A DNA stretch of 43,485 nt, taken from NCBI GenBank assembly GCA_013697915.1, contig JACCVY010000076.1, positions 1-43,485 on the forward strand. The letters are read 5' to 3'. The DNA is from Blastocatellia bacterium (GTDB taxonomy: Bacteria > Acidobacteriota > Blastocatellia > Pyrinomonadales > Pyrinomonadaceae). Each line of letters begins with the position of its first letter. Position 1 is the first letter of the stretch. Below are positions 13,458 through 43,405 of this stretch, in pieces. The position numbers and the translations under genes were made by a program. A model generated the notes under the pieces. It had not been told where the DNA came from. It saw only the letters and a list, made by a program, of their open reading frames with translations, and made no database searches.

Positions 13458-13575
13458 TAATTAATTTGAACGCTCAGCCTGGATGAAGCGCCGTGAAGCG
13501 TGCACCGCCCCACCGACTAGTGCCATAATATTCCCGCTAGCCAAAAATCAGCGAAAAACTTTGAAGAGGGTAACT

Positions 13576-15600
13576 ATGAAACGCTTCCTCGTTGCAATCG
13601 GACTGTCCGTCATCGTATTCGCATCGTTCGCCAACGCTCAACAAAGCGGTCATTACGCAGTTGAAGACTTGTTGAAGATTCGCCGTGTTAGCGACCCGCA
13701 AGCTTCGCCGGATGGCAAGCGCGTGGCCTTTACCATCGGCGACGTTAACTTTGATGCAAACCGCACAGTCACGCAGATCTATATCATGTCGAGCGCCGGC
13801 GGCGATATGAAGCAGCTCACCAGCGGCGCTGGTTCTTCCAGTTCTCCACGCTGGTCGCCTGATGGCAGGAAGATCGCCTACGTCACAGGCGATCAGGTTT
13901 GGGTAATGGAACCAGACGGCAGCAACAAAGAGCAGGTCACGAAAATCTCCACGGGCGCGGGTGGCCCGGTATGGTCGCCGGATGGCAACTGGATCGCTTT
14001 CGTGTCTGACGTTTACCCGGACTGCACCAATGACGAATGCAATCGGGCGAGAGATGAAGTCGCGGAAAAAAGCAAAGTCAAAGCGCACGTGACTGATCGT
14101 TTGCTGTTTCGTCACTGGGTTGAGTGGCGCGACCGGAAACGGACCCACGTTTTGATAGTTGCGAGCAAAGGTGGCGTCGCGCGCGATCTGACTGCCGGCG
14201 ATTTCGATTCGCCTCCTTACGCGGTAGCAGGCGAGGTTGATTACTCTTTCTCCCCCGATTCGAAAGAACTCGCGTACCTGCGCAATCCCGACAAGATCGA
14301 GGCCATCTCTACCAATAGTGACATCTATGTCGTTCCGACCGCCGGCGGCCCAGCGCGCGATATCACCGCTAAGAATAAAGGTTATGAAGATACGCCGGTC
14401 TACACGCCCGACGGCAAATACATCATTTACAGATCACAGGCGACGGCGGGTTTTGAAGCAGATCGCTGGCGGCTGATGGCTTACAACCGCGCCGCCGGAA
14501 CAAGCGTCGAGTTGTTGCGCGGCTTTGATCTAGGCGTCGATGAAATTGCGTTATCGCCTGATGGCAACACGATTTATTTCACGGCCGGCGAGCGCGGTCA
14601 CCAAAATGTCTACAAAGTTCCTGTCAGCGGCGGACAGCAACAAAAAGTCGCCGGCAATGTTTTTGCGAGCAACCTGCAAGTCGCTGCCGACAATACATTC
14701 GTGTTTGTAAGCAGCACATTGTCGGGCCCCGCTGAAATCTTCCGGGGAAATGCGGGAAGTGTTATCGCCTTAACGCACGTTAACAAGGACCTGATGGCCC
14801 AGGCCAACCTCAGGCCCGCGGAAGAAGTGGAATGGACTGGCGCGCTCGGCAAGGAGATTCAGGGCTTCATGATCAAGCCGGTTGATTTCGATCCTAACAA
14901 GAAGTATCCGCTGATTGTCATCATTCACGGCGGCCCGCAAAGCGCCTTCAACAACAACTGGGGCTATCGTTGGAACCCGCAAATTTTTGCTAACGCCGGT
15001 TACGTCGTGTTTCAACCGAACCCCCGCGGCTCAACCGGCTATGGCCAGCAATTCACAAATGAGATCAGCGGTGATTGGGGCGGCAAGCCCTACGTCGACA
15101 TCATGAACGGCGTTACCGACGTGCTGCGTCGCAATTCATTTATCGATCGCACACGCATCGGAGCGGCCGGCGCGAGCTATGGCGGCTACATGATCGATTG
15201 GATTCTCGGCCACAACAACGATCCGCGTTTTCGTTTCAAGACTTTGGTTTCGCACGCCGGTGTTTACAACCTAACCAGCATGTACGGCGCCACCGAAGAG
15301 CTGTGGTTTCCGGAATGGGAATTCAAAGGAACGCCCTGGTCCAATCCGGCGATGTATGAGCGCTGGTCTCCGAACATGTTCGTGCGCAACTTCAAAACGC
15401 CGACGCTGGTCACCGCCGGCGAACTCGATTTCCGCGTTCCCTACACGCAGAGTTTGGAACTCTTCACTGCCTTACAGCGCAACGGCGTTGAATCGAAATT
15501 GATCTTGTTTCCCGACGAAGGTCACTGGATTCTGAAACCACAGAACTCGGCGTTCTGGTATCACAATGTGCTCGACTGGTTTGATAAGCATTTGAAGTGA
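13576..15600 (+). CDS. Secreted S9 family serine peptidase (prolyl oligopeptidase / DPP type)
   Basis: A 674-residue exported peptidase. The N-terminus MKRFLVAIGLSVIVFASFANAQ is a signal peptide with a likely cut after ANA. A WD40/TolB-like beta-propeller (about 30-420) shows repeated blades of the type SPRWSPDGRKIAYV, PVWSPDGNWIAFVS and ALSPDGNTIYFT. The alpha/beta-hydrolase domain has HGGPQSAF, then GASYGGYM (Ser534), AGELDFRVP (Asp618) and DEGHW (His650), the Ser-Asp-His order of clan SC. Substrates are probably short, perhaps proline-containing peptides in the periplasm or medium. An upstream in-frame start at 13483 exists, but the ATG at 13576 begins the signal peptide and has AGAGGG 6 bases before it. 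Amino acid scavenging would fit the APC permease further on. Confidence 0.94.
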   Translation: MKRFLVAIGLSVIVFASFANAQQSGHYAVEDLLKIRRVSDPQASPDGKRVAFTIGDVNFDANRTVTQIYIMSSAGGDMKQLTSGAGSSSSPRWSPDGRKIAYVTGDQVWVMEPDGSNKEQVTKISTGAGGPVWSPDGNWIAFVSDVYPDCTNDECNRARDEVAEKSKVKAHVTDRLLFRHWVEWRDRKRTHVLIVASKGGVARDLTAGDFDSPPYAVAGEVDYSFSPDSKELAYLRNPDKIEAISTNSDIYVVPTAGGPARDITAKNKGYEDTPVYTPDGKYIIYRSQATAGFEADRWRLMAYNRAAGTSVELLRGFDLGVDEIALSPDGNTIYFTAGERGHQNVYKVPVSGGQQQKVAGNVFASNLQVAADNTFVFVSSTLSGPAEIFRGNAGSVIALTHVNKDLMAQANLRPAEEVEWTGALGKEIQGFMIKPVDFDPNKKYPLIVIIHGGPQSAFNNNWGYRWNPQIFANAGYVVFQPNPRGSTGYGQQFTNEISGDWGGKPYVDIMNGVTDVLRRNSFIDRTRIGAAGASYGGYMIDWILGHNNDPRFRFKTLVSHAGVYNLTSMYGATEELWFPEWEFKGTPWSNPAMYERWSPNMFVRNFKTPTLVTAGELDFRVPYTQSLELFTALQRNGVESKLILFPDEGHWILKPQNSAFWYHNVLDWFDKHLK

Positions 15601-15787
15601 AGGAGAGAAACCAACATTGGGACCGGGCTTAGGTTCTAGTAGTCTTAACCGAACGTAACAATCACGAACTTTCATTTTCCGATCGCTTAGTTGCAACTCT
15701 CGCCGACCATGTGAATTGTGAAGTTTGCGGAGCCGGAAGCACCGCCTGTGGAACATTTAATCTCGATCCCCCGTGAACACGGCGATT

Positions 15788-16117
15788 CTAGGGGTGGGCA
15801 CGGCGGATGGTCACCTTGAGTTGCGTCAGGTTGTTGGGCTCGCAGGCGTGGAGAGTCTCTTCCTCCTTAGTCGATGGGTCTTTCGCGAGCATAGTTACGT
15901 GCCAGCCGCACTGTGACTCGGCGCACTGGGGCCAGTTGCAAGCGGCTGTCCCAGAGCTCTTCGGGCAAATAAAGGTAAAAGTCAACGGGACGCTATCCGG
16001 CTTCAGCTCCAGCGTGAAGAGCGGCTGACCGTCACCCGTCGCGCTGCGCTTGCCGACGATCCGTACCGGCACATCGAACCGTTGCGGGCTGACCGTGATG
16101 CGGCACTCGTACGTCAT
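15788..16117 (-). CDS. Small unknown protein, probably beta-rich
   Basis: A 109-residue frame from the ATG at 16117 (a TTG at 16123 adds two residues). The composition looks protein-like: alternating beta-type stretches (ECRITVSPQRFDVPVRIVGK, LFTLELKPDSVPLTFTFICP), five cysteines with a CNWPQCAESQCGW cluster, and a hydrophilic C-terminus. No signal peptide, membrane helix or known motif was seen, and no clear ribosome binding site. It lies between the S9 peptidase and the ATP-grasp gene. Downstream, 15687-15780 on this strand also reads as an open frame without a start, ending ...GSANFTIHMVGESCN, which may be another gene remnant. I cannot assign a function. Confidence 0.45.
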   Translation of the reverse strand: MTYECRITVSPQRFDVPVRIVGKRSATGDGQPLFTLELKPDSVPLTFTFICPKSSGTAACNWPQCAESQCGWHVTMLAKDPSTKEEETLHACEPNNLTQLKVTIRRAHP

Positions 16118-16123
16118 AGACAA

Positions 16124-16430
16124 ACACGTTTCCAGTCGTCACCCGGCGCAGGCCGACCGTGGTTTAGCGCGAAGCCACAGAGCGGCAAAGCAGAGCGTGA
16201 TTAAGCTCACAAAAATCTCTTTCGAGCGAATATTTCAAACCTCAACTTAGAAGTAACAGAGAAGATGTCGCCCCTCGCGGAGCTTTGGCGAATTTCAAAC
16301 ATCTTTGCTTAGTTCTTTATGGGCGGAAGGCAGGAGCAGCCCGTTGGATTACATACTGCTATATCACCACAGACACCGGCGCCAAACATCTTGTTGCAGT
16401 CGTCATCTCCGGTGCAAGTACAAGGTTCTC
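16124..16430. other. Gap with a Cys-rich remnant and a short repeat
   Basis: In this 307-base stretch I see only the Cys-rich open frame at 16309-16434 (separate entry) and a GATGTCGCCCCTCGCGGAGC motif at 16264-16283, resembling the 'CTCCG-AGGAG-CG' type of dispersed repeat also seen at 41244-41318. No promoter is evident. Confidence 0.5.
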
Positions 16431-16434
16431 CTAT
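16309..16434 (-). pseudogene. Open frame for a cysteine-rich peptide, lacking a proper start
   Basis: Immediately downstream of, and out of frame with, the ATP-grasp gene, 41 codons run from after a TGA at 16435-16437 to a TAA at 16309-16311. They encode seven cysteines, with segments PCTCTGDDDCNKMF, GVCGDIAVC and TGCSCLPPIKN. The density and spacing of cysteines look like the C-terminal core of a small secreted or modified peptide. The only in-frame ATG (16389) would leave 26 residues with four cysteines. There is no GTG or TTG upstream, so the 5' part of the gene seems lost or fused away. It may be a remnant of a Cys-rich peptide gene, or a chance frame; the first seems more likely given the composition. 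Confidence 0.35.
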
Positions 16435-17756
16435 TCAGCTCGTTCCAGCGGCGGCAAAACCGCCTCAAAGTCTTCCACAAAACGAGTGGCGTATTTAGCT
16501 AGCAACTCTTCAACCCGCACCAGTTTCTTTGAACGCACGATCAAGCCGGCGTGATGCAGCTTCTTTACCCGATAGACAATTTCTGAATCGTCATAAGCGG
16601 AAGTGTCGGGATCTCCCTGTTTTGCGAGCGATAGCACGATACCGGCATATTCTTTTCGCGATTGCTTAAGTTTGTTACTGAAGCTTCCCTTACGGCCGGG
16701 CTTCTGATCCGATTCTATCCCTCCCTTACCGTTGGACTTCTCCTCTGCTCCTGCCGACTGCTCCTGCCGTCTTCCTCGCTCCCTAGCGTCTGCGACTTCA
16801 ATCTTCGCCCACTCGCGCCAGAGGTTTAAGCCACTTGCAGCTTCCAGGACTTCGGCGATGTAAGCGCCGCCAACGCGCGCGGCAACTTCCAGAAAATAAA
16901 ACTGCCCGTCCGCATCGCTCTTGATGAACTCAACATGTGCCGCTCCACGTTCCAGCCCCAGACCCTTAATTAGTTTCCGGTTTATCTCAAACAGTTTCTT
17001 TTCATCGGCCGAGCCGTGCGCAATCGTCCTGGAAATATAGGTGCCCCCGTAATGCGCCACTTCCAGCGGCGGGCGGCCATAGCGATTCGCGCCGGCGAAC
17101 GCCACGCGACCGTTATTCACAATCGAATCGACGTGGAACACTTCGCCGTTGATAAATTGGGCCAACAGGTAATATGAAGCGCGCTCGCGCAAACTATCGC
17201 GCTCGTTCAGTTCCTCAAAGATGCGCCAGACATCGTCGGCGTTTTCCACTTTGCGAATGCCGATGGCGGAAACGTCTGCACGCGGCTTCAGGATCCAGGG
17301 CGGCGGCACGCGTTCAATGAACTCGAGAATGTCGGCAGGATTCGTTAACGGAACGAAGTCCGGCACTACAACGCCCGCTGCTTTCGCTGCCTCAGCCATT
17401 CGCAGCTTGTCGCGAAAAGTTCTGGCAGTTGAACTATTCATACCGGGCAAACAGAAATGTTCGCGTATAAGCCCCGCAGTCATCACATCAAACTCTTCCA
17501 ACGCGATTACGCGGTCGGGTTTTCTTTCCCGCGCCAGAAATGCAACGAGGTCAATGAACAGTAGCGCGTCCGCGTCGTTAGGAACCGCCATAAGTTGATC
17601 GATGCAGTCGCGCGGCCAGTCTTCCTGCAGCATCTTTTCCCTTGTGATCAGAACCACCTGACAGCCCAGTCGTTTGCATTCACGAATGAAGTCGCCGCCC
17701 TTGAAGTAAGTGGCCAGGCAGATGATGTTGAGTGGGCGCGGGTCGGATTCCGTCAT
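16431..17756 (-). CDS. ATP-grasp domain protein, ligase of unknown substrate
   Basis: A 441-residue ATP-grasp enzyme (carboxylate-amine/thiol ligase superfamily). It has an N-terminal pre-ATP-grasp Rossmann part (1-110, IICLATYFKGGDFIREC...), then DKLRMAEAAKAAGVVVPDF (116-134), PPWILKPRADVSAIGIRKV (152-170) with the ATP-binding lysine, FINGEVFHVDSIV (201-213), and FLEVAARVGGAYI (288-300), which carries the Mg-binding glutamate. Residues about 324-368 are a Gly/Ser/Lys/Glu-rich linker of low complexity (GRRQEQSAGAEEK...), encoded by repeat-like DNA with two 12-bp direct copies; after it YAGIVLSLAKQGDPDTSAYD looks conserved again. No partner gene tells the substrate. Relatives of this type ligate amino acids or peptides, but this is open. 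Confidence 0.82.
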   Translation of the reverse strand: MTESDPRPLNIICLATYFKGGDFIRECKRLGCQVVLITREKMLQEDWPRDCIDQLMAVPNDADALLFIDLVAFLARERKPDRVIALEEFDVMTAGLIREHFCLPGMNSSTARTFRDKLRMAEAAKAAGVVVPDFVPLTNPADILEFIERVPPPWILKPRADVSAIGIRKVENADDVWRIFEELNERDSLRERASYYLLAQFINGEVFHVDSIVNNGRVAFAGANRYGRPPLEVAHYGGTYISRTIAHGSADEKKLFEINRKLIKGLGLERGAAHVEFIKSDADGQFYFLEVAARVGGAYIAEVLEAASGLNLWREWAKIEVADARERGRRQEQSAGAEEKSNGKGGIESDQKPGRKGSFSNKLKQSRKEYAGIVLSLAKQGDPDTSAYDDSEIVYRVKKLHHAGLIVRSKKLVRVEELLAKYATRFVEDFEAVLPPLERAE

Positions 17757-18221
17757 GGGGCGCGTGTACCAACTAGACTCTTGGATTTGTGATTGGGCTA
17801 AATATAAACCTTTTGCGGAAACGAGGTCACTGGATAATCGCTTTGCCCAAAGTACTGGGTTGGTGCCGCTTCGGCTTGCCGTCTGATGTGCGGCGGTGGC
17901 TATGCCCCGCCGTAGAGGTACCTTTAAAAACTTTTTGGGCTATGCCCTTTGGCGGCCTTTGGCCCATAAATCCGAAAGGCTAAGTGCAAACTTGGGGCGT
18001 AGCCCCGGAACAATCTAGCCGCTGTCGGCGGGGCATAGCCTCCGCCGCACATCAGGCGGCCAAGCCGAACCTGACATGGCCCATGACATTTGAGGTAAAG
18101 CTCCTGATGATGTATACAGCCCTGTCTTTTAACCCAGACTGTCAGTTTGCGGTTGCCTTAAAAACTTGCTCGCTTTGATGAATTCATTTCCGCAAACTAA
18201 CGGTTTGCGCTACAACTAATC
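17757..18221. other. Non-coding divergent gap holding a large palindrome
   Basis: This 465-base intergenic stretch separates the divergent ATP-grasp and acyl-CoA ligase genes. It contains the large inverted repeat 17870-18069 and, just before the ligase start, a short hairpin CGCAAACTAACGGTTTGCG (18193-18211), a motif with a relative at about 29502-29526. No gene or clear promoter was found. Confidence 0.6.
17870..18069. repeat. Large inverted repeat with 43-44 base arms
   Basis: The left arm 17870-17912 (TTCGGCTTGCCGTCTGATGT...) and the right arm 18026-18069 (...CGCACATCAGGCGGCCAAGC...) are near-perfect reverse complements and share GTGGCTATGCCCCGCCG / CGGCGGGGCATAGCC. The interior of about 113 bases contains nested smaller palindromes (GGGCTATGCCC, GGGGCGTAGCCCC). 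There is no transposase and no target-site duplication that I could identify, so it is better called a non-autonomous repeat element than an insertion sequence. Confidence 0.85.
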
Positions 18222-29540: not shown

Positions 29541-29580
29541 TTGACTTCTGACTTCTGACTTCTGACTTCTGATTTCTGAT
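29541..29580. repeat. Degenerate heptad tandem repeat (TTCTGAC)n
   Basis: About five copies of a TTCTGAC/TTCTGAT unit in a row, ending 2 bases before the start codon of the next gene, where a ribosome binding site would normally be. Relatives are found at 31803-31877, 41879-41946 and, in different wording, at 30388-30423, 39697-39740 and 43282-43338. Confidence 0.85.
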
Positions 29581-29582
29581 CT

Positions 29583-29849
29583 ATGACTCTTATGAACATC
29601 GAGTTAAAAGACTTATCCACTGGCCCTGTCTACGCGCAAGTGCGCGAACAAATCGAAAATCAAATTCGTCAGAAGGATGTCGCGGCGGGCGAAACTCTTC
29701 CCGCCCCTGCCGCGCTCGCGCAGAAACTGTCAGTGGATAAAGGTGAAATCCAGCGCGCATATTTTGAACTGGAACGCGCCGGCTTGGTCACGAAAGAAAC
29801 CGGCAAAGATTTTCTGGGCCAAATGAAGACGACCTATCGCGTTGCCTGA
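29583..29849 (+). CDS. Second minimal GntR-type DNA-binding protein, no effector domain
   Basis: An 88-residue protein. Residues about 11-75 show a GntR-like winged helix: PVYAQVREQIENQIRQKDVAAGETLPAPAALAQKLSVDKGEIQRAYFELERAGLVTKETG, where ETLPAPAALAQKLSVDKGEIQRAY corresponds to the LPSEREMA... signature with several changes, including loss of the SER. There is no effector domain. It starts right behind the heptad repeats and has no recognisable ribosome binding site, so it may be leaderless or poorly translated; ATG at 29592 is an alternative start. Function unknown; probably a small regulator, similar in design to 11747-12058. Confidence 0.75.
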   Translation: MTLMNIELKDLSTGPVYAQVREQIENQIRQKDVAAGETLPAPAALAQKLSVDKGEIQRAYFELERAGLVTKETGKDFLGQMKTTYRVA

Positions 29850-30481: not shown

Positions 30482-31831
30482 ATGAAGACAGAGTTTGTTG
30501 ACGTCTCTCCAACACGTAAAGAGATAAAAATTGAGATTGACCCGGCGGCGATCAAGCAGAGCTATGACGAGGTAAGCGATCGTTATGCGAAACAAGCGAG
30601 CGTGCCGGGCTTTCGTCCAGGCCACGCGCCACGTGCGGTTGTGCGCAATCGCTTCAAAAGTGAGATTCGCGCCGAAGTATTACAGCAACTGATTCCGGAC
30701 GCGGTAAATCAGGCGATAGACAAGCACGAGTTGAATGCCATTAAAGAACCCGATGTCGAACTCGAAAATGCTGCCGGACTGGAAAAGTTTGGCGAGGAAC
30801 CCATCTCGGTCAAGGTCAACGTCGAAGTTTTGCCGAAAGTTGAAGTGCAAAACTACAAAGGGCTGGAAGTAGCTCGCCGCGTTCGCCCAATTACCGATGC
30901 GAACGTGGACGAAATGTTTGACGCTTTTCGCGAGACGTCGGCGGCCATGCAGCCCGTTGAAGATCGCGCCTCCGCGACCGGCGACACCGTTACCGTAAAT
31001 TTAGTGGGCAAGTTTTTGGACATTCCGGACCAGGAAGATCTCAAGGCCGACGACGTAGAAGTAGAGCTCGGCGGTCGAGGGGTGCAAACGGAGTTCACTG
31101 AAAACCTGACTGGCGTGAAGGCAGACGACGAAAAGATTTTCACCGTTAGTTATCCGGAAGATTTCAAATCAGAAGGACTGGCCGGCAAGCGGATTGAGTA
31201 CACGGCAAAGGTCACCGCCGTGCGCGTCAAGGAACTTCCCGAGATAGACGACGAATGGGCCAAAAGCCTGGGCGAAGAGTTTGACTCGGTAGCCACGTTG
31301 CGGACAAAAATTCGCGAGGACCTGGAAAAGCGCGCGACCCAGGAGTCTGATCATCGCCTGCGCGCCGACTTGATGTCCAAACTTCTCGAGCAGAACCAGT
31401 TTGAAGTGCCGCAGAGTCTGATCGATCAACAAACCAGTCGCCGCTTGGAATCCATCGTTCGCGACATGATCGGACGAGGCGTCGATCCTCGCAATCAGCA
31501 GCTCAACTGGGAGGCCGCACGGGAAGAGTTGAAAGCCCAGGCGGAGGCTGATGTGCGCAGCACATTGCTGCTTGAGCGCATTGCGGATGAAGAAAAGATC
31601 GAAGTGTCGAATGAAGACATAGACGCCGAGATTGATGCTATCGCATTGAGCTCACAACAACCGATTGAACAAGTGCGAGGTGTCTTGACAAAGGATGGAG
31701 GCGAACGTAGCATCGCGCACAGGTTGCGCAACCGCAAAGCGCTTGATCTTCTGGTCGAAAACGCGAAGGTCGCCGAAGAAGAGTGGAGCGAAACTGAGGA
31801 GACAGAAGTCAGGAGTCAGAATTCAGAATGA
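30482..31831 (+). CDS. tig: Trigger factor (ribosome-bound chaperone, peptidyl-prolyl isomerase)
   Basis: Binds the ribosome exit tunnel and helps nascent chains fold. The 449-residue protein has normal length. The N-terminal ribosome-binding domain (1-110) has the signature SVPGFRPGHAPRAVVRNRF; the FKBP-like PPIase domain (about 150-245) starts near ASATGDTVTVNLVGKFLD; and the C-terminal helical arms domain has LRTKIREDLEKRATQESDHRLRADLMSKLLEQNQFEVPQSLID. The last residues, EVRSQNSE, are encoded by a degenerate short repeat that continues past the stop, so the natural C-terminus has been altered. It leads the tig-clpP-clpX-lon cluster, an order that is common in bacteria. Confidence 0.97.
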   Translation: MKTEFVDVSPTRKEIKIEIDPAAIKQSYDEVSDRYAKQASVPGFRPGHAPRAVVRNRFKSEIRAEVLQQLIPDAVNQAIDKHELNAIKEPDVELENAAGLEKFGEEPISVKVNVEVLPKVEVQNYKGLEVARRVRPITDANVDEMFDAFRETSAAMQPVEDRASATGDTVTVNLVGKFLDIPDQEDLKADDVEVELGGRGVQTEFTENLTGVKADDEKIFTVSYPEDFKSEGLAGKRIEYTAKVTAVRVKELPEIDDEWAKSLGEEFDSVATLRTKIREDLEKRATQESDHRLRADLMSKLLEQNQFEVPQSLIDQQTSRRLESIVRDMIGRGVDPRNQQLNWEAAREELKAQAEADVRSTLLLERIADEEKIEVSNEDIDAEIDAIALSSQQPIEQVRGVLTKDGGERSIAHRLRNRKALDLLVENAKVAEEEWSETEETEVRSQNSE

Positions 31832-31877
31832 GTAGTCAGCTTTTCTTCTGATTTCCGACTCCTGATTTCTGTATTCA
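31803..31877. repeat. Degenerate heptad repeat spanning the tig stop, in inverted halves
   Basis: CAGAAGTCAGGAGTCAGAAT and TCAGAATG on the left face TTCTTCTGATTTCCGACTCC and TGATTTCTG on the right, so repeat units of one sense end at the tig 3' end and units of the opposite sense follow, forming a potential hairpin of about 30 bases per side. Family of 29541-29580 and 41879-41946. The tig coding frame reads into the first half. Confidence 0.85.
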
Positions 31878-41857: not shown

Positions 41858-41878
41858 CGTGTGTTAAGAGAAAGTTCT

Positions 41879-41946
41879 GAGATCTGACTTCCAATTTCTG
41901 ACTTCTGACTTCTATTTTCTGACCTCTGATCTCTGACTTCTGATCT
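41879..41946. repeat. Degenerate heptad repeat (TTCTGAC)n before purA
   Basis: About nine units of the form TTCTGAC, TTCTATT, CTCTGAT follow one another up to 12 bases before the purA ATG, in the same sense as 29541-29580. The TTTTTCTT after them leaves no ribosome binding site for purA. Confidence 0.85.
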
Positions 41947-41957
41947 CTGTTTTTCTT

Positions 41958-43277
41958 ATGGCTAAAATCATCGTTGTCATCGGGGCCCAGTGGGGCGACG
42001 AAGGAAAAGGCAAGATCGTTGATCTGCTTGCCGAACACTTCGACATCGTTGCGCGCTACCAGGGCGGCCACAACGCCGGCCATTCGGTGCAGGTGGGCGA
42101 TAAGTCGTTTGTGCTGCACCTGCTTCCTTCCGGCATTGTTCACCCCGGCAAGACGTGTGTGCTGGGCAACGGCATGGTGATCGATCCCAAAGCGTTTTTT
42201 GAGGAAGCGGACCGCCTGCTGGGGCAAGGCATCGAGGTTTCTCCCGAACGCGTGAAGATTAGTTCGCGCGCACACCTGATACTTCCCTACCATCGTGCTT
42301 TGGATCACACCAGCGAAGAGCGGCTCGGCAACGAGAAAGTTGGCACCACCTTGCGCGGCATTGGTCCCGCTTATGAAGACAAAGCCGGACGGCGTGGAAT
42401 AAGAACGGCTGACGCCCTGGTGCCGGAAGTATTGCGTTCGCGCATTGAGCGCAATCTCGAAGACGCCAACCGGATCATCATGGCGTACGGCGGCGAGAAA
42501 TTGGATGCGGACGAAATCTTTAACGAGATGTCTGGGTTGACTGAACGTCTCGGCGCTTTCATCAGCGACACAACGCACTTTTTGAATGTGGCGGCGGTGG
42601 ATGGCCGATCGATATTGCTTGAAGGCGCGCAGGCTACTCTGCTGGATGTGGACCACGGCACCTATCCATTCGTCACTTCGTCGAGCACGATTGCCGGCGG
42701 CGCGATCGTTGGCTCCGGGCTAGCGCCAAATCGGCTGACTGGAGTGCTTGGCATTGTGCGCACTTACACCACGCGCGTGGGCGAAGGCCCATTCCCCACC
42801 GAGATGGTTGAGGGCGAAGCAGAGATGGGGCAACTCATTCGTGAGCGCGGCCGCGAGTATGGCGCCTCAACCGGGCGGCCCCGGCGTTGCGGCTGGTTCG
42901 ACGCGTTCGCCACGCGTTATGCAGCGGAGATCAACGGTTTCACTTCCGTTGCCTTGACGAAGCTCGATGTGCTTGACGCGTTGGCTGAAATAAAAGTGGG
43001 TGTTGGTTACAAACTCGATGGCCGAACGTGTGAATCGCTGCCCGCAGTTGCGCAGGAGTTACGCCGCATTGAACCCGTTTACGAAACGCTGCCGGGTTGG
43101 CAAACATCAACGGTGGGAACTACTGAACTCAGCGCGCTTCCCGCAAACGCTCGTCGCTATGTTGATTTTCTTTCCGCGAAGATTGGCGTTGAGATTGGCT
43201 TGGTCTCTACCGGCCCCGAGCGCTCACAAACGATCGTCGTCAAAGACTCTGCCGTCGGCGGTTGGCTGAACGACTAG
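41958..43277 (+). CDS. purA: Adenylosuccinate synthetase PurA
   Basis: Converts IMP, aspartate and GTP to adenylosuccinate in AMP synthesis. The 439-residue protein has the usual length. GAQWGDEGKGKIVDLLAE (9-26) is the GTP loop with the catalytic Asp; HNAGHSV (38-44) holds the catalytic histidine; GTTLRGIGPAYEDKAGRRGIR, LEGAQATLLDVDHGTYPFVTSS and the aspartate loop VRTYTTRVGEGPFPTE, then TGRPRRCGWFD, are all in order. No Shine-Dalgarno is visible, because short repeats run up to 12 bases before the start. It stands alone after trx. Confidence 0.98.
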   Translation: MAKIIVVIGAQWGDEGKGKIVDLLAEHFDIVARYQGGHNAGHSVQVGDKSFVLHLLPSGIVHPGKTCVLGNGMVIDPKAFFEEADRLLGQGIEVSPERVKISSRAHLILPYHRALDHTSEERLGNEKVGTTLRGIGPAYEDKAGRRGIRTADALVPEVLRSRIERNLEDANRIIMAYGGEKLDADEIFNEMSGLTERLGAFISDTTHFLNVAAVDGRSILLEGAQATLLDVDHGTYPFVTSSSTIAGGAIVGSGLAPNRLTGVLGIVRTYTTRVGEGPFPTEMVEGEAEMGQLIRERGREYGASTGRPRRCGWFDAFATRYAAEINGFTSVALTKLDVLDALAEIKVGVGYKLDGRTCESLPAVAQELRRIEPVYETLPGWQTSTVGTTELSALPANARRYVDFLSAKIGVEIGLVSTGPERSQTIVVKDSAVGGWLND

Positions 43278-43281
43278 TTTC

Positions 43282-43338
43282 AAGTTGCAAGTTCCAGCTT
43301 TCAAGTTCCATGTTGCGTACTCAGCACTCAGTACTCAG
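43282..43338. repeat. Short degenerate tandem repeats after purA
   Basis: Two different unit types follow one another: CAAGTTGCAAGTTCCAGC / TTCAAGTTCC (about 9-base units) and ACTCAGCACTCAGTACTCAG (7-8 base units). They lie between purA and tRNA-Lys and have no coding content. Confidence 0.75.
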
Positions 43339-43405
43339 CACTTGGGAACAGCCGACTTGAGACTTCATCACCACTTCCGTAGAATGCCATTCACCGTTTT
43401 GATGT

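Follow-up and report, generated by a model that had tools for sequence, protein, structure and literature searches.

A start-less cysteine-rich frame at the 3' end of an ATP-grasp gene in a Blastocatellia bacterium: a possible relic of a PqqD-type protein tail

PqqD is a peptide chaperone of the RiPP recognition element type, and PqqD-like domains found elsewhere are mostly partners that hand a precursor to its modifying enzyme. An HPr kinase, a nucleotidyltransferase, and PqqD also constitute a known accessory set in lasso-peptide systems. Among small peptides, class I lanthipeptide precursors (leader model NF038153) are composed of a leader and a Cys-containing core. Bacterial cis-defensins, which have the CS-αβ fold, are small and Cys-rich, and their cysteine pattern is given as CX(2,18)CX3CX(2,12)CX(4,17)CXC in the sections of the source used here (PMC11561630). 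Here, we compare with these systems a short Cys-rich frame located beside an ATP-grasp gene of a Blastocatellia bacterium, and describe the protein family to which its closest likeness was found.

The window, i.e. the whole stretch of DNA analysed (43,485 nucleotides of contig JACCVY010000076.1), contains the frame on its minus strand (16434..16312), where it translates as IGEPCTCTGDDDCNKMFGAGVCGDIAVCNPTGCSCLPPIKN and is closed by a TAA stop codon (16311..16309); a different translation results when the plus strand is read in that register. An earlier note on this DNA had described, with no strand given, seven Cys in 41 codons, the lack of a usable start, and an overlap of a few bases with the ATP-grasp stop in another frame, all of which are seen on the minus strand. 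The in-frame codon preceding the frame is TGA, and its first codon is ATA (16434-16432), overlapping the TAG stop (16433-16431) of the ATP-grasp ORF (16431-17756, minus strand), with which it has four bases in common. No ATG, GTG, or TTG stands ahead of the cysteines, and the sole in-frame ATG is codon 16. The frame contains a C-x-C near its end, has only one residue that is Arg or Ser, and reaches its stop six codons after the last Cys.

This arrangement might be that of a live short gene, starting unusually at the ATA in the ATP-grasp stop or at the ATG of codon 16 and translated by coupling. The ATAG overlap would suit translational coupling, and ATA is among the possible starts in NCBI translation table 11. 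Besides the missing ATG, GTG, or TTG, however, a start at codon 16 would drop three of the seven Cys, and the frame lacks a signal sequence. A single promoter-like site was found within 15550-16600, and it sits behind the frame; the DNA of the frame was not recovered from any of the 15 other genomes searched within the genus. It is therefore very improbable that the frame is a working gene in its present form.

The frame sits in a stretch of ~830 bp that was not encountered in relatives and is bounded on the far side by a convergent S9 peptidase gene (13483..15600, plus strand; identified by domain match and DNA alignment). In the nearest relative, the DNA alignment covers the end of the S9 peptidase gene (as far as 15600) and resumes at 16467 in the ATP-grasp gene, with nothing aligned between, and the ATP-grasp protein alignment reaches residue 441; among 16 genomes of the genus, including its own, the DNA of 15600-16440 occurs in its own genome only. 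The same stretch holds an orphan ORF of 109 amino acid residues (15788..16117, minus strand), with fairly gene-like codon usage and a G+C content of 0.615, as compared with about 0.49 on either side. This ORF gave no family match in Pfam, NCBIfam, or PHROGs and no convincing relative (best non-self E-value, 0.0026 in 87 genomes), and its structure model (pLDDT, 40) is uninformative. An Rfam search gave no match.

The ATP-grasp gene itself is L-amino-acid-ligase-like according to domain, homology, and structure-database matches, its nearest solved relatives being L-amino acid ligases (PDB entry ID, 4wd3; E-value, 6.4e-19). It is present in 104 of 145 genomes (E ≤ 1e-60, own genome included), and no frame with at least seven Cys follows it within 400 bp on the same strand at any of 29 other loci (two loci have a frame with six Cys; for this survey, only 89 bp were available at one locus and 336 bp at another). 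These results speak against the functional tie, by way of peptide ligation, that the earlier note had raised, and we reject a link between the enzyme and the frame and regard the gene as a bystander. A programmed frameshift out of the ATP-grasp gene was also rejected, since a similar C-terminus (LE(R/K)AE, PERPE, and the like) is found at 26 of the 29 loci of relatives, with L025, L029, and L049 as the exceptions, and inspection by eye revealed no slippery site.

Several repeats were observed in the surroundings. A variable linker of the ATP-grasp protein (window positions 16745-16769) carries the 13-bp repeat CTGCTCCTGCCGA, and the linkers of loci L022-L024 differ there by eye. An inverted-repeat likeness between part of the frame and this 13-bp repeat amounts to an 11-base match, which is estimated to be close to the chance expectation for 2.8 kb, and was left aside. 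The region between the ATP-grasp gene and the divergent AMP-ligase gene contains a 35-nt inverted repeat (17878-17912 and 18026-18060; 94% complementary; 113 nt apart), a sequence similar to which occurs elsewhere in relative L023. Tandem arrays with 7-bp units (such as TGACTTC and TTCTGAC) are found at 29542-29588, 31797-31839, 41875-41949, and 43276-43342.

The cysteine content of the frame was compared with that of real and shuffled DNA. The sample of this genome comprised 238,359 bases (20 stretches of the genome plus the window). None of 1326 coding windows of 41 codons in this genome has more than four Cys, whereas seven or more Cys in 41 residues occur in 17 of the 3787 open frames (at least 35 codons) of the sample, and dinucleotide shuffling of the window gives 1.95 such frames per 43 kb (40 shuffles). 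The description of the frame as far from random thus stands against coding windows and fails against open frames of any kind; the cysteine count by itself is not beyond chance. The frame could alternatively be a chance open frame in intergenic DNA with coincidental cysteines, a reading with which the missing orthologue and the codon usage also agree, the latter failing to separate the frame from noncoding frames. With the Cys codons included, the usage looks noncoding (1.3% of coding windows are as low and 77.5% of noncoding ones as high); with these codons left out, it points neither way (13.6% of noncoding windows and 13.0% of coding ones lie beyond). On the other side, the frame is the only one of the 17 located outside longer ORFs, the remaining 16 overlapping such ORFs by 0.45 to 1.0 of their length and containing 4 to 15 Arg plus Ser residues. 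Shuffling of the intergenic stretch produced one high-Cys frame in 38 of 2000 shuffles; a high-Cys frame with no more than two Arg plus Ser, a cut-off picked after the frame had been seen, arose in none of the 2000 and at 0.025 per shuffled window.

Through one of the 17 high-Cys frames, we found a protein family, multicopy in the same genome and present in 68 of the 145 genomes, whose C-terminal domain matches the self-processing module (SPM) of FrpC (E-value, 1.8e-27) and is directly preceded by hypervariable Cys-rich segments (93 distinct segments; family loci L075:4257-5372, L334-L341, and L342-L471). The cleavage site of FrpC is Asp-Pro, as stated in the portion of the source used here (PMC7078468); the residue before the conserved Pro in the SPM segments was Ser in 63 and Thr in 30 of the 93, under a pattern that admitted only Ser, Thr, or Pro, so that Asp would be missed. 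When Cys is excluded, the residue composition of the frame fits that of these segments and not that of chance frames: its level is reached by none of 482 window-shuffle and none of 252 stretch-shuffle frames, 23 of 39 SPM segments lie below it, and among the 16 other real high-Cys frames only L075:4257-5372 (identified by list position), a coding gene of the SPM family, attains it. Among 49 frames that come from other loci and have no SPM motif, seven also reach this level, and all seven are in loci fetched for the SPM family. The non-Cys residues of the frame are unlike those of chance frames.

The composition would suit an origin of the frame from a different secreted protein rich in Cys, as its relic or a stray fragment; the source would be notably a segment preceding the FrpC-like self-processing domain, or an unknown protein. 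The best of the 93 SPM segments, L339 from the same genome, aligns to 37 residues of the frame with a score of 70, ending in CLPP at the segment end; this score is reached by 3 of 500 shuffles of the frame with fixed Cys positions (2 of 300 in a separate run), and in a tblastn search of the 1-kb region without composition correction the L339 segment matches the frame at an E-value of 2e-5. With composition correction, however, the SPM family has no match at E ≤ 0.01 anywhere in the window. As a set, moreover, the SPM segments are unlike the frame, the mean score against them being reached by 208 of 500 shuffles; the reversed frame averages higher than the forward one (36.6 versus 34.6), and in the mirror test 59 of 72 and 67 of 72 true SPM segments outscore the frame. 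The segments are also internal, standing before the SPM domain, whereas the frame ends at a stop. Taken together, a derivation from the SPM family or from another such protein is rather unlikely.

Homologues of the translated frame, on which the earlier note had made its reading depend, did not come to light: searches of 145, 162 (class), and 396 (phylum) genomes, sets that overlap and include its own genome, gave no direct homologue. The best non-self match in the 145 genomes (E-value, 0.007; locus L002) is a shadow frame inside a permease-like gene, which recurs among the 162 class genomes; the 396 phylum genomes gave none below 0.014. Of the 42 non-self matches at E ≤ 1 in the 145 genomes, 37 (at 19 loci and in 18 fetched regions) were read and nearly all were unrelated frames by eye. 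There was no match in plasmids, Pfam, NCBIfam, or PHROGs, and the best E-values were 3 against phages and 0.08 against PDB sequences. In a scan of at least 120 viral and at least 118 genome stretches for the Cys-spacing pattern, 380 of 595 matches were stop-free, with a best score of 14 (128 for the frame against itself), and a degenerate 24-base pattern of the frame had no viral match. The case made below therefore rests on likeness at the level of a family and not on an orthologue. One weak match, at locus L473 (E-value, 0.6; 37% identity over 30 residues), gave the lead to this family.

The protein encoded at L473 (203 residues) consists of a PqqD-like domain (PF05402; E-value, 1.1e-7), a Tat-like signal recognized by eye, and a Cys-rich tail running to the stop. 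A family of this plan (PqqD-like domain, signal sequence, and hypervariable Cys-rich tail ending at the stop) is found in 68 of the 145 genomes, including the present one (E ≤ 1e-6, with the N-terminal 129 residues of L473 as the query), the list of 68 differing from that of the SPM family. The present genome has two matches (best E-value, 1.3e-14), and genomes G041 and G052 have at least 29 each, 29 being the number of candidates scored in either. Family loci in relatives are L473 and L490-L579; at L508, the PqqD-like N-terminus matches PF05402 with an E-value of 5.4e-4, below the cut-off. Among the 30 loci L490-L519, an HprK-like ORF is found in 20 and an NTP_transf_5-like one in 19, and 15 loci have all three genes in the order of kinase, PqqD type, and NTP_transf_5. 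One representative of the HprK-like gene matched TIGR04352 (HprK-related kinase A; 45 bits versus a cut-off of 200), and one of the NTP_transf_5-like gene matched PF14907 (32.1 versus 31.2). No description of the family was found in a limited literature search. The earlier idea of a secreted or modified peptide core that has lost its 5' part, and whose intact relatives have a leader plus a core, is borne out by the existence of a family with that plan and by the statistical likeness of the frame to its tails, and is not borne out as to an orthologous tail.

For comparison with the frame, tails were collected from the 30 loci, 60 further regions among the matches listed, and 18 fetched regions, giving 109 frames and 103 distinct tails after dropping identical tails and matches that ended before query residue 100; tail starts were placed by alignment offset and are approximate. 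All 103 tails are closed by a stop within the fetched DNA, as is the frame by its TAA. Two families, SPM and PqqD type, were tried in turn, so that the tests of tail likeness were not blind. Against the 103 tails, the mean, ten-best, and maximum scores of the frame were reached by 6, 8, and 16 of 500 Cys-fixed shuffles, respectively. The corresponding counts were 8, 17, and 91 without the L473 tail, 5, 6, and 45 without any G041 tail, and 14, 10, and 43 for the 57 short tails without G041; the ten tails of the genus taken alone gave a weak signal (32, 32, and 103). The maximum score is thus no longer significant once L473 is left out; by the mean and the ten best, the likeness survives the dropping of L473 or of G041, and is therefore broad and not due to one close relative. 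The reversed frame showed no excess over its own shuffles, 150, 291, and 74 of 500 of which reached it by mean, ten best, and maximum, and the forward orientation outscored the reversed one in 52 of 58 true short tails as compared with 36 of 72 decoys.

The z-scores of the frame (3.18 for the ten best and 2.38 for the mean) are close to the medians of 58 true tails of 25-60 residues with near relatives removed (3.15 and 2.36), and were reached by 0 of 72 (ten best) and 6 of 72 (mean) Cys-rich decoys from the SPM family. Comparison frames with at least seven Cys were drawn from real DNA (16, one being a coding gene of the SPM family), window shuffles (120), and stretch shuffles (80). None of these 216 reached the frame by raw score against the tails or by z of the ten best, and five did so by z of the mean (1/16, 1/120, and 3/80, respectively), which, with the composition and the position outside longer ORFs, makes a chance origin unlikely. 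The motif CxC-x(2,6)-D-x(0,2)-C, present in the frame, occurs in only 16 of the 103 tails and in 9 of the 93 SPM segments. In a tblastn search of the window with the family, three weak matches were obtained (E-values, 0.007 to 0.099), the frame being the weakest. Judged by these alignment statistics, the frame resembles the family tails as a group beyond its Cys positions, with no close single match.

The frame could alternatively be the remnant of a modified or defensive peptide of a known class, namely a class I lanthipeptide, a graspetide, or a CS-αβ peptide (bacterial defensin). Class I lanthipeptide leaders exceed the cut-off in a few of the searched genomes (3 of 145). In the genome carrying the frame, by contrast, NF038153 has no match at E ≤ 1, and the lanthipeptide cores of relatives are unlike the frame by eye. 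A helix plus hairpin is predicted by the single-sequence model of the frame (pLDDT, 70, a middling value), whose weak fold matches are mostly scorpion-toxin-like, and the frame shares with cis-defensins its small size, its Cys richness, and the C-x-C near the end. These fold matches all have E-values above 1 (best Z-score, 2.3) and were given no weight; the frame lacks the CxxxC of the published defensin pattern and also a signal sequence. The lanthipeptide and defensin readings thus each fail on a defining feature, i.e. the NF038153 leader and CX3C, respectively. As for the graspetides, the matches listed for the ATP-grasp protein are L-amino-acid ligases and general ATP-grasp models (in NCBIfam, among the best 25 of 29), and the gene is conserved without the frame, leaving this reading unsupported. 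Overall, a relic of any of these known classes is improbable.

With moderate confidence, and on the basis of sequence comparison, we favor the reading that the frame is the stranded 3' end of a gene of the PqqD/signal/Cys-tail type, whose PqqD-like and signal parts were lost at the ATP-grasp boundary. We infer both the descent from this family and the loss event; the working of the intact members is likewise proposed from their domain plan. Intact relatives would be made with the PqqD-like part as a chaperone-like leader or built-in recognition domain, the signal would carry the protein across the membrane, and the Cys-rich tail, folded on disulfides or modified, would be released or displayed as the product. 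In the present genome, a rearrangement with its breakpoint at the ATP-grasp stop codon may have removed the leader and the start, leaving about 41 codons of the tail with their stop. The presumed junction (16425..16440, minus strand) comprises the intact C-terminus of the ATP-grasp protein (LERAE followed by the stop), in whose stop codon region the frame begins. Beside the frame, no trace of a PqqD-like N-terminal domain or of a signal was found, the upstream neighbor being the ATP-grasp gene, and for this reason we file the frame as a relic and not as a working member of the family. The frame is probably silent now and produces nothing, because it has no usual start, signal, or conservation.

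A wider and more doubtful proposal is that the frame represents a broken member of an undescribed exported-peptide system, in which proteins with a PqqD-like domain, a signal, and a hypervariable Cys-rich core would operate alongside an HprK-like kinase and a protein of the NTP_transf_5 type. Such genes would number dozens in some species, their cores being exchanged and shed by recombination, and stranded tails would be the fossil record of this turnover. The relic by itself changes little, and the interest lies in the parent family, whose members resemble exported precursors that have incorporated a PqqD-like domain and end in a hypervariable Cys-rich region. Provided that the tails are active peptides, the family would amount to an extensive and so far unread collection of natural products or surface molecules, and the frame would be an example of how rearrangement can remove or shuffle such tails.

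When the family is set against the known systems, the FrpC-type SPM proteins are represented in these genomes by a domain homologous to theirs in a second multicopy Cys-rich family, in which the Cys segment precedes the domain instead of forming the C-terminus, and the frame does not score as such a segment. The PqqD domain (PF05402) is common to known PqqD and the N-terminus of the family members. In contrast to PqqD known elsewhere, the PqqD-like part here forms one protein with a signal and a hypervariable Cys-rich tail, and of this plan the frame would retain only the tail. Finally, the terms HPr kinase, nucleotidyltransferase, and PqqD co-occur in the lasso-peptide literature, and the PqqD-type genes of this family likewise have both HprK-like and NTP_transf_5-like neighbors at 15 of the 30 loci L490-L519.
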